From: an archaeon
Lineage (GTDB): Archaea; Thermoproteota; Nitrososphaeria; Nitrososphaerales; CADDZS01
Assembly (NCBI GenBank): GCA_021792315.1
Contig: JAJYUX010000087.1
Location: 1 to 6,202 of the forward strand
Reading direction: 5' to 3'
Length of the DNA stretch: 6,202 bases
Both the position numbers and the translations under genes were made by a program. Of the stretch, positions 1,620 through 6,202 are shown piece after piece (position 1 is the first letter of the stretch; every line of letters begins with the position of its first letter). The notes under the pieces were generated by a model. The model searched no databases. It saw only the letters and a program-made list of their open reading frames with translations, and had not been told where the DNA came from.

Positions 1620-1632
1620 TTACGAATGTAAA
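1620..1632 (+). promoter_or_regulatory. 13-base regulatory element TTACGAATGTAAA, copy 1
   Basis: This 13-mer is identical to the one at 4356-4368 and contains a short dyad, TTAC-GAAT-GTAA. It starts 54 bases before the GTG at 1674 and 24 bases before an AAAT core at 1644-1647. Both distances are the same at the second copy. In archaea, a site just upstream of BRE/TATA is typical of an activator. A CCGACA follows in both copies, but at a different spacing. Confidence 0.6.
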
Positions 1633-1641
1633 GGGAAACCG

Positions 1642-1649
1642 ACAAATAG
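1642..1649 (+). promoter_or_regulatory. TATA-like box of the DoxD-like gene
   Basis: The sequence ACAAATAG has its AAAT core at 1644-1647, 30 bases before the GTG at 1674. This spacing predicts a leaderless or nearly leaderless transcript. The box is weak on its own. The argument for it is its exact alignment with the box at 4378-4384. Confidence 0.5.
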
Positions 1650-1673
1650 TTTGAAGGCGCAACCACGCCGAAA

Positions 1674-2267
1674 GTGATGCGCAGAACGCTCTATCCGCCT
1701 CGCTCCGAGGGACAACGCGACGAGCAGCGCGGGCTCGGTAGCAAGAGTGCAGAGGAGGAAGAAGAGTATTTTCCGCCCAGAGACGCCGCATTCGTAAGGC
1801 GCAATTGGCGCGTTCTTCTGAGAATTTTCTTTGCATTAGTTTGGAGCATTGATGCTTACTTCAAGTGGTTGTTTGTCTACTACGGAGGTGATTTCGGACA
1901 CATGATTAGATCGGCGGCACAGAATCAGCCGGGCTTCGCCCAAAATTGGATGAATCTCTGGGCTAACATTGCTCAGGCAACGCCAAACTTTACCCTTCTA
2001 ATCGCAATATTCGAAACTCTGATTGCTTCGTTCCTTCTCTTGGGCTTGCTAACACCTGTTGTCTCAACTATGGGAATAATCTTCAACCTGTTGATTTGGA
2101 GCACTGCAGAGGGATTCGGAGGTATCCTTCAACCTGGAGCAACAGACATTGGCACGGGGCCCTTGTATGCTGCAATATTTGCTGGATTAATCGTAATTCA
2201 AGCAGGAAGACAGAAAGGGGTAGACAAGATTCTACACAAGAGATTTCCCAGCATACCATTCTGGTAG
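1674..2267 (+). CDS. DoxX/DoxD-like four-helix membrane protein
   Basis: The product is 197 residues. Residues 1-42 form a charged, probably cytoplasmic extension with a run of five glutamates at 27-31. Four predicted helices follow at about 48-70, 105-127, 128-147 and 160-178. The pattern of one helix with WSIDAYFKW, an FETLIASFLLLGLLTP pair, then WSTAEGFGG and GATDIGTG is that of the DoxX/DoxD family. DoxD is known as the small subunit of the thiosulfate:quinone oxidoreductase of Acidianus, but stand-alone relatives are common and their roles are mostly unknown. No DoxA partner is visible here, so thiosulfate oxidation should not be assumed. Starts are adjacent: GTG 1674 and ATG 1677. I chose GTG because its 54-base distance to the 13-base element matches the second copy exactly. 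The long acidic N-terminus is unusual for the family. Confidence 0.8.
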   Translation: MMRRTLYPPRSEGQRDEQRGLGSKSAEEEEEYFPPRDAAFVRRNWRVLLRIFFALVWSIDAYFKWLFVYYGGDFGHMIRSAAQNQPGFAQNWMNLWANIAQATPNFTLLIAIFETLIASFLLLGLLTPVVSTMGIIFNLLIWSTAEGFGGILQPGATDIGTGPLYAAIFAGLIVIQAGRQKGVDKILHKRFPSIPFW

Positions 2268-2371
2268 GGGAGAAAATTTGCACACCTTGACATACGGCTG
2301 GATCACGTGTTTGATCAACTCAGTTTATGGCGTTAAGAAATCTGTGAATTTGATTGGCTTACTACAAGCTA

Positions 2372-2400
2372 CTTTGTTCTCTTTCCTATTCTTCTTCTTC
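2372..2400 (+). terminator. Pyrimidine-rich tract, possible transcription terminator after the DoxD-like gene
   Basis: Twenty-seven of 29 bases are C or T, with runs such as TTCTTCTTCTTC. Archaeal terminators are commonly T-rich tracts without a strong hairpin. The tract is about 105 bases after the stop of the DoxD-like gene and upstream of the ZIP gene. The rest of the 210-base gap (2268-2477) holds a distant inverted repeat and a possible TATA-like box. Confidence 0.25.
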
Positions 2401-2442
2401 GAAAGGGCGCACGGCATTTTCGCTGGGCGTCTTTGCTTGACA

Positions 2443-2449
2443 ACAAATC
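2443..2449 (+). promoter_or_regulatory. Possible TATA-like box of the ZIP gene
   Basis: ACAAATC resembles the boxes at 1642 and 4378, and its AAAT lies 33 bases before the TTG start at 2478. It is weak in sequence, and the gene could also be read through from the DoxD-like gene. Confidence 0.3.
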
Positions 2450-2477
2450 GTTGAGTTGATCTTACAAGGGTTACAAA

Positions 2478-3329
2478 TTGTCGAATCTGTTTCTGGGTCT
2501 CGGAATTTCGATTCTGGCTACTTTCCTGCCTCTCTATCTTGGGCTTTATCTTCCTACACTTGCAGGGAGTTTCGGCATGAAGAAGGACCACAGGCAGTTC
2601 GTTCTTCTCTTCACAGGAGTTTCTTCCGGAGTCATGTTTTGGTTCTTCCTTGATGTTATGAATGACGCGGCTCTTCTGGGCGTTAATCAAGGGTTTTCTG
2701 GAGGAGCAGCTCACGTTGTTCTAGCCGTGTTATTTGCATTTGCTCTGCTATTGTTCTTCGGTCTAGAAACAGTATTGTCGTCTACTTCGCGATCATTGCA
2801 AGATACCTCTAGCCGCCCCAATACTTTGGAGCAAATTTCCACAAACAGTAGACAATTAGGGACTCGTGCGATTAGCATCACCTTTGTGGTTAGTGCAATC
2901 GTTGCCTTCGGGATAGGCTTTCATGCGGTGGGCGAGGGAATAGAAATAGGAGGCATTTTGCAATACACTTCATCCATAATAAACGCGATAGGCGGATTAG
3001 GTCCAGCTATTGCGTACGTGATTCACAAGATTCTGGAAGGTCTTGTAATAGGCACATTTGCTTTGCTTGCGGGAGTGCCGCGGAAGGGCATTCGTCTACC
3101 GGCTCTAGGACTAATTGCCGGCATCCCCACCATAATTGGTCTGTTCATTGGATTGTATTCGCTCATCGACCCGACTTATTTCTTTGCTCTTGGCGGTGCT
3201 GTCGTAGTGTTTGCGGAATACAAGTTGATTCCCAGATTTTTAGAAATGGGCGATTCAAAATATCTCTCGGTTGTTACAGTGCTCTTGGGTTTTTATCTAA
3301 TGTACTTGGCTGGTCTTTTCCACGGCTGA
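2478..3329 (+). CDS. ZIP-family divalent metal transporter
   Basis: The 283-residue product has about eight hydrophobic segments. The two metal-site helices of the ZIP family are clear. TM4 has FGIGFHAVGEG, with His149 and Glu153, and TM5 has HKILEGLVIG, with His183 and Glu187; both are HxxxE pairs. ZIP proteins move Zn(II), Fe(II), Mn(II) and related ions into the cytoplasm, but the substrate cannot be read from sequence. The loop between TM3 and TM4 (about 100-128) is Ser/Thr-rich and lacks the usual histidine cluster. The helix after the DHRQ loop (42-60) carries few polar residues until Asp59 and Asn62/Asp63. The start is TTG: an in-frame TGA at 2457-2459 leaves no other start before the first helix, and the next ATG would delete TM1. 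A cupredoxin gene follows after 76 bases. Confidence 0.85.
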   Translation: MSNLFLGLGISILATFLPLYLGLYLPTLAGSFGMKKDHRQFVLLFTGVSSGVMFWFFLDVMNDAALLGVNQGFSGGAAHVVLAVLFAFALLLFFGLETVLSSTSRSLQDTSSRPNTLEQISTNSRQLGTRAISITFVVSAIVAFGIGFHAVGEGIEIGGILQYTSSIINAIGGLGPAIAYVIHKILEGLVIGTFALLAGVPRKGIRLPALGLIAGIPTIIGLFIGLYSLIDPTYFFALGGAVVVFAEYKLIPRFLEMGDSKYLSVVTVLLGFYLMYLAGLFHG

Positions 3330-3405
3330 AAGAATGAACAGAGTGCGTTTTTCGGCGCTCGTGATATCATCTCTAGAATCGTTCAGGATTTGGTAAGAAA
3401 GAAAA

Positions 3406-3864
3406 ATGATAGCAAAATCGAAATTATCTATCGGCATAGCCACAGCTGCTGTCGTAGCAATCTCCATCATAATAATTGTCGCTCTGCATTACCCTAATCT
3501 GCTTGGAACAACCAGTACCAATGCTACCTCTTCCTCCACAGTCTACTTTACAATTGTAGACAATGATTATCCCAGCCCAGGCGCAGGGATGAACGGAAGT
3601 TATTATCATTCATTTACAACCCCATGGCCTGTTATTCACGTCCAAAAGGGTCAGACTGTCGTGATACACGTTGTGAATGAAGGAGACGAACCTCATGGGT
3701 TCATGATCGGTCACTACTTTGACAGCGGCGTCGCATTGCAGCCGGGCGCATCTTACACCGTAACTTTCCTCGCGGATGAAGCAGGCACTTTTACATTTCG
3801 CTGCAGCATTTTTTGTGCGATTCACGTTTACATGCAAAATGGGCAATTGATAGTTTCCACTTAG
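3406..3864 (+). CDS. Membrane-anchored cupredoxin with CuA-like, shortened copper-binding loop
   Basis: The product has 152 residues: one N-terminal helix at about 8-28, a Ser/Thr linker, and a single cupredoxin domain. The likely copper ligands are His97 (DEPHGF) and a C-terminal CSIFCAIHVYM with Cys133, Cys137, His140 and Met143. Size, single anchor and the His97-Cys133 distance resemble subunit II of ba3-type oxidases, which carries binuclear CuA. However, canonical CuA is C-x3-C-x3-H-x2-M, and here the second gap is x2. The part C137-x2-H140-x2-M143 matches the short type-1 loop of amicyanin. The protein could therefore be CuA, type-1 or a hybrid site. It probably acts outside the membrane as an electron carrier or a copper-binding protein. 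No oxidase subunit I is in the window. The ATG follows an A-rich stretch (AAGAAAGAAAA), with no convincing TATA-like box. Cotranscription with the ZIP gene 76 bases upstream is plausible. Confidence 0.85.
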   Translation: MIAKSKLSIGIATAAVVAISIIIIVALHYPNLLGTTSTNATSSSTVYFTIVDNDYPSPGAGMNGSYYHSFTTPWPVIHVQKGQTVVIHVVNEGDEPHGFMIGHYFDSGVALQPGASYTVTFLADEAGTFTFRCSIFCAIHVYMQNGQLIVST

Positions 3865-3914
3865 AGCAGACTGTTGATCTCAAGAGGTCCGTATAATACC
3901 ATGCATGATCTAGA

Positions 3915-3939
3915 TTTTTGAACCTTTGCATAATAAAGG
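3915..3939. terminator. T-run and small hairpin between convergent genes
   Basis: A TTTTT run at 3915-3919 is followed by CCTTT-GCATAAT-AAAGG at 3923-3939, a 5-base-pair stem. It sits in the 126-base gap between the convergent cupredoxin and zinc-finger genes, where termination from both sides is expected. The stem is weak. Confidence 0.3.
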
Positions 3940-3990
3940 ATCTGTTTCTGATCGGCTGGAGGCGACTCCTCTGCTACATTACAATGAGCG

Positions 3991-4233
3991 CTATTGCCCT
4001 CCTCTTTGTAAACGCCTAAATTGTTCCAAGCTCATTCCTTTAGATTTCGCGAACGCGACAATCCTTCTCGAACTGAACTCGCATTCTTTGCAGATATACG
4101 CATAACACACTGCACAATACTCTACTTCCTTCACTCTAGTATCGTTGAGGGTTAGCCTGCATACGTCGCAGATTCCTAGCATTTTGTTTGACCTCACTTC
4201 CGGAATTTTCGGAGAACGGTTCTCGTAATACAT
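3991..4233 (-). CDS. Small six-cysteine zinc-finger protein
   Basis: The 80-residue product has six cysteines as three CxxC knuckles: Cys22/25 (CDVC), Cys40/43 (CAVC) and Cys48/51 (CKEC), spaced x14 and x4. This looks like a treble-clef or FYVE/zinc-ribbon-like finger binding one or two Zn(II), although the fourth pair needed for two full sites is absent. The C-terminal 25 residues are basic and probably helical (FAKSKGMSLEQFRRLQ), which could contact nucleic acid or a protein. No signal peptide or membrane segment is seen, so it is probably cytoplasmic. A regulator or small adaptor is possible but unproven. The start is ATG 4233, about 34 bases after a TATA-like box; an internal ATG at 4182 would still keep all six cysteines. 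The gene is convergent with the cupredoxin gene and divergent from the cysteine-peptide operon. Confidence 0.7.
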   Translation of the reverse strand: MYYENRSPKIPEVRSNKMLGICDVCRLTLNDTRVKEVEYCAVCYAYICKECEFSSRRIVAFAKSKGMSLEQFRRLQRGGQ

Positions 4234-4258
4234 GATATGGTTGCGACATAAAAAAGAT

Positions 4259-4273
4259 CTCCGTATTTAGGAG
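4259..4273 (-). promoter_or_regulatory. TATA-like box of the zinc-finger gene inside a CTCC/GGAG dyad
   Basis: On the minus strand the box reads CTAAATAC (4263-4270), with its centre about 34 bases before the ATG at 4233. It is framed by CTCC at 4259-4262 and GGAG at 4270-4273, a dyad that could let a repressor cover the box. A T-rich TTTTTTAT at 4248-4255 is closer to the ATG than usual for a TATA box. Confidence 0.4.
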
Positions 4274-4355
4274 GGCTGTGAAATTTTCATTCTTCTTACT
4301 AATCGTATTCTTGAGCTTCCCTTGTCAGGTTCTATGGGATGTAGCATAAAAGTCG

Positions 4356-4368
4356 TTACGAATGTAAA
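4356..4368 (+). promoter_or_regulatory. 13-base regulatory element TTACGAATGTAAA, copy 2
   Basis: This copy is identical to 1620-1632. It starts 24 bases before the AAAT core at 4380-4383 and 54 bases before the ATG at 4410, the same offsets as copy 1. It probably binds the factor that also acts on the DoxD-like promoter. Confidence 0.6.
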
Positions 4369-4377
4369 CCGACAGGG

Positions 4378-4384
4378 CTAAATC
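4378..4384 (+). promoter_or_regulatory. TATA-like box of the cysteine-peptide operon
   Basis: CTAAATC has its AAAT core 30 bases before the ATG at 4410, predicting a leaderless transcript for the small peptide gene. It resembles the CTAAATAC box of the divergent zinc-finger gene. Confidence 0.5.
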
Positions 4385-4409
4385 CTCTCCGCAGTTTAGC
4401 TGAATAGAG

Positions 4410-4508
4410 ATGTCTCGCGCTAAGCTGGAAATTATTCTCGAAAAAACTTTCGAACGAGTACAGGAGAGGTGCGATGATTTCGGTGGCTGCGACACGTGTT
4501 CAGATTGA
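4410..4508 (+). CDS. 32-residue cysteine-rich small protein, first gene of operon
   Basis: The frame runs from ATG 4410 to TGA 4506-4508 and encodes 32 residues. The first 20 are charged and helix-prone (MSRAKLEIILEKTFERVQER). The tail is CDDFGGCDTCSD, with Cys21, Cys27 and Cys30 and four Asp, a plausible metal- or thiol-binding patch. There is no membrane segment. No family is recognised. Evidence that it is real: its ATG sits 30 bases after a TATA-like core and 54 bases after the 13-base element, exactly as for the DoxD-like gene, and it precedes two same-strand genes. It lies 32 bases before the ATG of the next gene, or overlaps it by 13 bases if that gene begins at GTG 4496. It could be a small regulator, a metal-binding peptide or a leader peptide. 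Confidence 0.5.
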   Translation: MSRAKLEIILEKTFERVQERCDDFGGCDTCSD

Positions 4509-4540: not shown

Positions 4541-4891
4541 ATGACCTGCGAAAGTAATCTAAGAGCTTGGAATATCAACCTGCGGCGCCTTCTTGTGCTT
4601 GTGGGGCTAGCGGCAGTCATTATTGCAGTATCTGTTGCTTCCGTCCTTGTAAGTCCGGCATTCATTTCCGTCCTTCCACTGCTTTTCTTTGTTGCAATGT
4701 GCCCGCTAATGTGTGTGGCGCACAGATTGGTATCTTGGGTCAAGGGAGGAGCAAAGGTGAGAGAAAGAATAGTGTTTGGCGACAACATCCCTGAAGTAAG
4801 AAAGGGAACGGAAGAGAGACCTGCGCTGGCCTCAACAGATTCTGATCCAGAAACAACTACGATTGCTTTGGAGCGAAAGCCAGAGGAATGA
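4541..4891 (+). CDS. Two-helix membrane protein with CPLMC motif (DUF2933-like)
   Basis: From ATG 4541 the product is 116 residues. Helices are predicted at about 14-37 and 40-63. The second ends in LPLLFFVAMCPLMCVAHR, with Cys54, Met57, Cys58 and His61. This recalls the CPLMH signature of DUF2933 proteins, small membrane proteins often seen near heavy-metal resistance genes; the match is from memory of the motif and is tentative. After a basic stretch (KGGAKVRER) the C-terminal 50 residues are polar and probably disordered. A longer frame begins at GTG 4496, inside the preceding small gene. The ATG is preferred for its clean N-terminus. A GGGGGTG at 4521-4527 is a possible, rather distant, Shine-Dalgarno site. 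The TGA stop overlaps the ATG of the propeller gene (ATGA), which indicates translational coupling. Confidence 0.7.
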   Translation: MTCESNLRAWNINLRRLLVLVGLAAVIIAVSVASVLVSPAFISVLPLLFFVAMCPLMCVAHRLVSWVKGGAKVRERIVFGDNIPEVRKGTEERPALASTDSDPETTTIALERKPEE

Positions 4892-6202
4892 TTCATAATA
4901 CCAATCTCTCAGGGATTCGATCATTCCTCAGTCTTTCAATTTTGTTTCTTTTATTGCTGACCGTCGTCCCTAACTTTTCAATTATTATTTTTCCACTTGC
5001 TCTTTCTTCCACTACTGGCGCAGCAGCTGCCGGTACTTCTTCTTCATCTCCCTTGTTGAACATCAACAGAACAACAGTTTTGAGCCCCTATGTCAGGGAG
5101 TTTGATGTACCAATGATCGATTCAGGTCCGGCCGGAATTACTGTTGATCCGTCCGGAAATGTGTGGTTCATGGAAGATAGTGCATCCAAGGTAGGAGTAT
5201 TCTTCCCAAGCAACGAATCTTTCAAAGAGTATCCATTTACGGCTCCCAGCCAATCACAAACTCAATCCGCAAACTTGTCTAACATTGCTTCGCTCGCCAT
5301 AAGTCAGATAGCATACGACTCCCATACAGGCAATCTGTGGTTTACCTGGGCTGCGTCGAATTCTATCGGGCAGTTTGATCCAAAAACAGGACAGGTGAAA
5401 TTCTATCAAGTTCCAACAAAAGCAGCGGGGCCGTTTGATATCCTGATAAGCCCGAATGACATGATATGGTTCACTGAAATACTCGGGAACAAGATAGGAG
5501 AGCTGAATCCTGTTTCCGGAAATATTGAGGAATTTGACACGCCAACTTCATTTTCAGGGCCGGGCATGATGACCTTTGATTCTAAGGGCAGGATCTGGTT
5601 TGCTGAAACTTATGCAAAGAAAATTGGCGTATTAGATCCAAACAATGTACAACCAGGCACCCCAAACGGAATACAAGAATACGCGCCGCCCTTCCAAGTA
5701 TTCTCTCCGCTTGGCATCACATTTTCTGGAGGCGATGTTTGGTTTACAGACCACGGGGCGAATAGCTTTGGCGAATTCATTCCTCAAAACAACACTTGGA
5801 GGCAGTTCTGGGTCAATCCTCCAATTGGAGTAAGTTTCGGCGGTGTGCCAATAGTGCAATCCCTGCCAGCTCAGATACTGATAGACAAGAACGGCAACGT
5901 ATGGTTAGCAGAACATCAGGGAAACAGAATTGCGCGATTCGATCCTTCAAATGGCACTCTGATAGAGTATCTAGTCCCTACGCGGCCCCTCACCGAGACT
6001 TTATGGCTCGCACTTGACCAAAACGGGAATGCTTGGTTTACTGAGCATGATACTGGCAAAATAGGAATCGTCAAAGCGAGCAAGACAATTCCGTTCAGCG
6101 TCTCAATATCTAATGACATTCTCTACCTTCAACAAGGAAGAATCTCTTCGTCGAAGGTCTCAGTTTCATTCTCTTCAAATGCCTCGTCGAGCATGGGTTC
6201 CC
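4888..6202 (+). CDS. Vgb-like seven-bladed propeller protein (COG4257 type), C-terminus beyond window
   Basis: The frame is open from ATG 4888 to the right edge (438 residues, incomplete). Residues about 11-40 are hydrophobic and act as a signal peptide or anchor, followed by an Ala/Ser/Thr linker. Residues about 67-396 hold seven repeats centred on a W[FL][TAM]-type strand: WFMED 93, WFTW 151, WFTE 194, WFAE 237, WFTD 285, WLAE 339 and WFTE 383, each followed by xNKIGxxxP-like strands. Seven such repeats fit the seven-bladed propeller of virginiamycin B lyase (Vgb). Archaeal members are usually annotated as streptogramin lyase or NHL-like, but that activity is unproven and an extracellular binding role is as likely. 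Past residue 400 a Ser-rich region begins another domain or anchor. The ATG overlaps the preceding TGA by four bases, so it is in the same operon. Confidence 0.8.
   Translation, partial: MIHNTNLSGIRSFLSLSILFLLLLTVVPNFSIIIFPLALSSTTGAAAAGTSSSSPLLNINRTTVLSPYVREFDVPMIDSGPAGITVDPSGNVWFMEDSASKVGVFFPSNESFKEYPFTAPSQSQTQSANLSNIASLAISQIAYDSHTGNLWFTWAASNSIGQFDPKTGQVKFYQVPTKAAGPFDILISPNDMIWFTEILGNKIGELNPVSGNIEEFDTPTSFSGPGMMTFDSKGRIWFAETYAKKIGVLDPNNVQPGTPNGIQEYAPPFQVFSPLGITFSGGDVWFTDHGANSFGEFIPQNNTWRQFWVNPPIGVSFGGVPIVQSLPAQILIDKNGNVWLAEHQGNRIARFDPSNGTLIEYLVPTRPLTETLWLALDQNGNAWFTEHDTGKIGIVKASKTIPFSVSISNDILYLQQGRISSSKVSVSFSSNASSSMGS

Follow-up and report, generated by a model that had tools for sequence, protein, structure and literature searches.

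In this work we analyzed a stretch of 6,202 nucleotides, hereafter the window (contig JAJYUX010000087.1 of the archaeal assembly GCA_021792315.1), in which a 13-base element, TTACGAATGTAAA, carrying the dyad TTAC-N4-GTAA, is present in two identical copies. One copy precedes a gene encoding a DoxD-like membrane protein and the other a group of genes that begins with a cysteine-bearing peptide and includes a small membrane protein with a CPLMC motif. From their likeness to the dyads that accompany copR genes in other archaea, both copies are very probably operators of a CopR-type regulator, and would belong to a copper regulon of a Thaumarchaeota-like archaeon. Regulators of this type, archaeal and copper-responsive, combine a helix-turn-helix of the Lrp/AsnC type with a metal-binding TRASH domain. 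If this assignment is correct, two little-known gene groups come under copper control, the DoxD-like and CPLMC proteins, whose role is obscure, become tied to copper, and there is a spacing rule to test, together with a defined operator and a candidate for its regulator.

Results

The element occupies the same position in two promoters

The two exact copies lie on the forward strand at 1620-1632 and 4356-4368, and no further match was found in the window when up to two mismatches were allowed; shuffled sequences gave a mean of 0.17 matches, and two matches in 3 of 200 shuffles. In both places an AAAT starts 24 bases past the start of the element (1644 and 4380) and a start codon (GTG 1674 and ATG 4410) lies 54 bases past it, exactly as an earlier note on this DNA had described when it drew attention to the repeat at two promoters with equal AAAT offsets. 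The DoxD-like gene possibly starts at ATG 1677, as in its closest homologue (P0001), which would change this distance to 57 bases; the distance from the element to the A+T-rich box, 24 bases in both promoters, is independent of this choice.

The length of the repeat is by itself unremarkable, an exact repeat of at least 13 bases being found in 75 of 300 dinucleotide shuffles of the 6.2 kb, near what chance alone gives, and the window holds a second exact 13-mer repeat, ACATGATATGGTT, at 4230 and 5459. The rare part is that both copies are upstream of genes at an equal offset: a 13-mer common to the 100-nucleotide stretches upstream of nine gene starts was obtained in 29 of 5000 shuffled sets, and in 4 of 5000 when the offsets had to be equal within 5 bases. 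The promoters also have AACCGACA in common (1636-1643 and 4367-4374) at unequal distances from the dyad, directly at it in promoter 2 and five bases later in promoter 1. Searches of the window against Rfam and for tRNA genes gave no matches.

The dyad recurs at copR loci of other archaea

For the comparison, an alignment of DoxD led to L001, from a Thaumarchaeota metagenome-assembled genome (MAG), and by way of it to genomes of the same order; 400 related genomes were compared. A CopR alignment, with up to seven candidates scored per genome, matched 61 of them (threshold E 1e-25) and yielded 30 loci, to which the counts of sites refer. The form of the dyad at cop loci of other genomes is CTTTAC-N4-GTAAAG, and each window copy differs from TTTAC-N4-GTAAA at one of the ten arm positions. 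Among the 18 CopR loci that score best (L210-L227), 17 carry TTTAC-N4-GTAAA with up to one core mismatch and 13 carry it perfect; the remaining locus, L211, has no site. The 30 loci carry 37 dyad sites, whereas 20 mononucleotide shuffles gave 5.6 on average and 11 at most.

When palindromic dyads were counted blind upstream of 26 copR genes, a set without the four genomes to which the 13-mer had led, the same motif was recovered: TTTAC-N4-GTAAA came out on top, in 9 of the 26 regions, versus a maximum of 3 in 200 shuffles. A 27-site matrix was obtained from 31 sites by dropping three located inside genes away from copR and one duplicate, and a 20-site matrix, representing 13 loci, was made without the four genomes mentioned above. 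With the 20-site matrix, positions 1619 and 4355 rank first and second in the window (18.9 and 16.0), scores that are reached by 1 and 5 of 5,000,000 random positions, respectively; 16.0 is reached by none of the 1,160,672 positions of the mostly bacterial stretches L003-L080.

Two further sites were noted. The third-best matrix match in the window, TTTACAATTGTAGA at 3547-3560 (13.4, a score reached by 31 of 5,000,000 random positions), lies in the cupredoxin gene and may be a chance match or an intragenic site. In L237, which has a more distant CopR homologue, a perfect dyad, TTTACATTTGTAAA (2234-2247), is located 128 bases beyond the end of that homologue and is followed by a frame that, read by eye, starts MAKDWIKTSAKFTNLKECLKKCQ.

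Distribution of the 13-mer and of its near-exact form

The 400 genomes were also scanned for the exact 13-mer, using the reversed sequence as a control, and 33 matches were obtained in 32 genomes versus 72 for the control (hand count). Four of the 33 (L132, L133, L134 and L194) are at clusters of a CopR-type regulator with genes for a CopA-like ATPase and/or a metal-binding YHS protein. In L132, L133 and L134 the site lies between divergent copR and YHS genes; in L194, from genome G168, copA lies about 100 bases downstream of it, and there is another site just before copR. The regulators of L133 and L134 match the AsnC-type helix-turn-helix (PF13404, 42.6 and 45.6 bits, cut-off 27) and the archaeal TRASH domain (PF08394, 32.4 and 29.5 bits, cut-off 27), and the genes beside them encode an E1-E2 ATPase domain. 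L188, which has a short frame with faint similarity to CopR (two matches, E 1e-5 and 9e-5) about 630 bases from the 13-mer, was left out of this count.

The near-exact form TTACNNATGTAAA was searched in eight genomes and gave seven matches, all in the cop clusters of G165, G398, G168 and G353, and none in G303, G322, G001 and G002; the reversed control gave three matches, all in G168. The first four genomes were selected for having the 13-mer at cop loci, and the finding is that the near-exact form occurs nowhere else in them. The concern raised in the earlier note, that the 13-mer might be scattered through coding DNA at chance frequency, was addressed in the relatives: across the 400 genomes it is not enriched, but in the four genomes with the 13-mer at cop loci all seven near-exact copies are there.

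In G168 the dyad at L204 (5828-5880) also faces, as read by eye, a divergent frame for a small membrane protein, whose ATG (5878) lies 50 bases from TTAC with a TATAAA at about 23, a layout like that of the window promoters. An uncontrolled scan of viral contigs with the pattern gave 27 stretches.

The distance to the likely TATA box differs among gene classes

Distances were read from the A+T profile averaged over promoters and counted from TTAC. The A+T stretch falls at 16-21 in 16 copR promoters, at 21-25 in 8 copA promoters and at 24-28 in 8 YHS promoters; it is found at 24-27 in both window promoters and at about 24-28 in 3 DoxD promoters of relatives. Taking instead the first best A+T 6-mer of each promoter, a noisier measure than the averaged profile, the values were 15-24 for YHS, 13-17 in 15 of the 16 copR promoters and 22 in both window promoters. 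The window dyads are thus placed directly upstream of the likely B recognition element (BRE) and TATA box, the box being assigned from its A+T content. The earlier note had proposed one regulator acting on a dyad in just this place; the presence of the same dyad at promoters of CopR-type, YHS and CopA genes elsewhere, and a window box distance equal to that of the YHS promoters, bear this out. By analogy, the spacing classes fit the scheme of divergent activation and repression described for Pyrococcus furiosus, and the window promoters would be of the activated class.

Genes downstream of the two predicted operators

The features of both promoters and the genes behind them are collected in Table 1.

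Table 1. Predicted operators, promoter elements and genes of the window
Feature	Position	Strand	Evidence
Operator 1 (predicted), CTTACGAATGTAAA	1619..1632	+	dyad TTAC-N4-GTAA at 1620-1631; best matrix score in the window, 18.9
Likely BRE/TATA of promoter 1 (ACCGAC AAATAG)	1638..1649	+	AAAT 24 bases from TTAC
DoxD/DoxX-like membrane protein, 197 aa	1674..2267	+	start GTG 1674 or ATG 1677
ZIP-like membrane protein	2478..3329	+	PF02535, 23.3 bits (cut-off 35.1); PRK04201.1, zinc transporter ZupT, 33.3 (cut-off 252)
Cupredoxin	3406..3864	+	PF13473, 34.7 bits (cut-off 27)
Operator 2 (predicted), GTTACGAATGTAAA	4355..4368	+	dyad at 4356-4367; second-best matrix score in the window, 16.0
AAAT of likely TATA box, promoter 2	4380..4383	+	24 bases from TTAC
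32-residue cysteine-bearing peptide (open reading frame only)	4410..4508	+	no Pfam family
Small membrane protein with CPLMC motif, 116 aa	4541..4891	+	two close homologues
Virginiamycin-B-lyase-like (Vgb-like) propeller protein, cut by window end	4888..6202	+	PF24684, 155.3 bits (cut-off 50)

The first protein behind operator 1 stays under the curated cut-offs for DoxD, a subunit of thiosulfate:quinone oxidoreductase (PF04173, 15.2 versus 22.7; NF041179, 18.7 versus 300), and by this measure it is DoxD-like and not DoxD. The ZIP-like and cupredoxin genes are on the same strand and are perhaps part of the same transcript. Nitrous-oxide reductase models also align with the cupredoxin, over their C-terminal part (TIGR04246, 47.5 bits versus a cut-off of 625), so that the copper domain alone is common to both. 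Weak relatives of this cupredoxin (22-25 bits) are encoded divergently from copR, with the dyad in between, at L210, L216 and L218.

Relatives of the DoxD-like protein were found in 15 of the 400 genomes of the class, L001 encoding the closest among those with DNA (62-64% identity); none was detected in viral contigs by tblastn. A stretch resembling promoter 1, AACCGAC...AAATAG, is present at 1369-1384 of L001. In three of the 15 genomes (G158, G303 and G322) the relatives are near cop genes. In G158 (L118) these are CopR, YHS and CopA-like frames; the YHS frame is preceded, at 36 bases, by a site with a score of 20.5, and there is no site near the DoxD frame, which is itself broken by a stop or a shift. 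Degenerate operator-like sequences precede the DoxD gene of G303 (with a broken frame) and the two of G322, with scores of 13.9 (L196), 7.9 (L198) and 4.3 (L197/L115). At 2130-7084 of L002, from a soil Bathyarchaeota MAG, a CopA-like frame stands together with relatives of the ZIP-like, cupredoxin and DoxD-like genes of the window, and the dyad is absent. Divergent from the DoxD-like gene of the window, on the minus strand (477-1547), is a gene for a membrane protein with an MCATCPTC stretch, which has no Pfam or NCBIfam match.

The CPLMC protein encoded behind operator 2 matches no family. One of its close homologues and a DoxD homologue (P0002) are both on contigs of 37,727 bases, probably the same contig. 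Small proteins with an MxC...CPLMC layout are encoded within about 400 bases of copR in L233, L234 and L235. In L235 a site with one core mismatch lies 55 bases before the look-alike frame; in L233 and L234 an operator-similar sequence with two mismatches was recognized by eye. A look-alike and the protein of the window have little similarity (27% over 59 residues, E 4e-7 in a single comparison), and the look-alike of L234 reaches 11.8 bits with DUF2933, for which the cut-off is 21.

Discussion

Comparison of the sequences establishes the identity of the sites, their link to CopR clusters and their phase relative to the promoter. From this we infer that the source organism has a CopR, that it binds these sites and responds to copper, that it activates rather than represses, and that the genes form the operons considered here. 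By analogy with the CopR of P. furiosus, the regulator would sit on the dyad directly upstream of BRE/TATA; on binding copper through the TRASH domain it would help the TATA-binding protein and transcription factor B onto the adjacent box. Expression would then rise for the DoxD-like gene and possibly for the genes of the ZIP-like protein and the cupredoxin, as well as for the operon encoding the Cys peptide, the CPLMC protein and the Vgb-like protein. The DoxD-like protein, the Cys peptide and the CPLMC protein may be new copper-handling parts.

A broader proposal is that the copper regulon of soil Thaumarchaeota and their relatives uses a single operator, CTTTACR-WW-YGTAAAG, that the outcome is set by how far this operator lies from the TATA box (roughly 16 bases where copR represses itself, 21 at copA and 24 at genes of metal-binding proteins), and that some lineages recruited the DoxD-like, tiny Cys-peptide and CPLMC targets. 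We hold this tentatively, as a possibility close to balance. Twelve of the 15 genomes with DoxD relatives, including G001 with L001, show no cop genes and no good site in the stretches examined (L122, among these 12, has a site scoring 10.7), from which it follows that the link to DoxD is lineage-specific; for this reason we lowered our estimate from evenly balanced to slightly short of that.

This absence also counts against assigning the window elements to CopR, and so do several other observations. Three CopR loci, two in G398 (L202 and L203) and one in G303 (L211), are without the dyad, which lies within 200 bases of copR in just 3 of the 12 lower-scoring loci (L228-L239); the window sites, with one arm mismatch each, score under most cop-locus sites; and the CopR of the source organism itself is unseen. 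Furthermore, the core criterion by which the matrix sites were picked was set after the window element was known, so that the blind count is the cleaner test.

That the repeat has no regulatory meaning, being due to chance or to a general core-promoter element, is very improbable. The frequency of 13-base repeats in shuffles, the second repeat in the window and the lack of enrichment agree with chance, and the 13-mer alone would be insufficient to reject it; the specificity for cop loci, the blind dyad count, the matrix ranks and the common phase reject it together. A core-promoter element would be expected at many promoters of the same genomes, and in each of the four genomes with near-exact copies these are found at cop loci and nowhere else. 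We also consider it improbable that a different regulator, for instance of the ArsR type or another of the Lrp type, acts on the same or a similar dyad at both promoters. A gene with an ArsR-like translation (by eye) is found upstream of the DoxD relative in L002, and the unseen CopR leaves room for such a regulator; L002, however, is without the dyad, and the dyad is at the copR genes themselves in nearly all of the best loci, as autoregulation predicts.

A different question is the sign of the regulation. CopR could bind and repress without copper, as in Thermococcus onnurineus, and not activate with copper. According to passages of PMC7830388, CopR represses copA in that species and activates in Saccharolobus solfataricus, so that the family alone leaves the sign open. 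Repression seems nevertheless unlikely at the window promoters: their dyads leave room for the box, as those of the YHS promoters do, whereas at copR the dyad nearly abuts the box, a placement better suited for repression, and in P. furiosus the site from which CopR activates immediately precedes BRE (passages of PMC7830388). We therefore continue to favor activation by CopR in the presence of copper.

Our search of the literature, covering titles and the openings of abstracts, gave no description of this operator or of a link between DoxD and CopR. Known systems share several of its features. The Saccharolobus solfataricus CopR/CopT (SSO2652), reported to be an activator, likewise belongs to a cluster of regulator, chaperone and ATPase (cited in passages of PMC7830388). 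In Nitrososphaera viennensis, a soil thaumarchaeon, the copper-limitation motif TTCSGSMTTTGWACYANT is likewise upstream of copper-related genes, but it has another sequence and is found at genes raised by copper lack; this organism has a CopT similar to SSO2652 (both from passages of PMC7785015). A further parallel is P. furiosus, for which passages of PMC7830388 describe a divergent cop cluster, a regulator with an AsnC-type helix-turn-helix and a TRASH domain, and one divergent CopR site, directly upstream of BRE, that activates copA and represses copR. The target genes differ, the DoxD-like, Cys-peptide and CPLMC targets not being named for CopR in those passages, and the centre of the P. 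furiosus operator has three bases (TTNNCAWWWTGNNAA) versus two here. Neither window site matches the P. furiosus consensus when up to two mismatches are allowed; with the centre cut to two bases the consensus fits both sites at one mismatch, although a pattern as loose as this does not by itself exceed chance (4 found versus a mean of 3.67). The half-sites TTNNCA and TGNNAA, adjoining BRE on its upstream side, are the same, and with a centre one base shorter the window operators would represent a variant of the CopR operator of P. furiosus.

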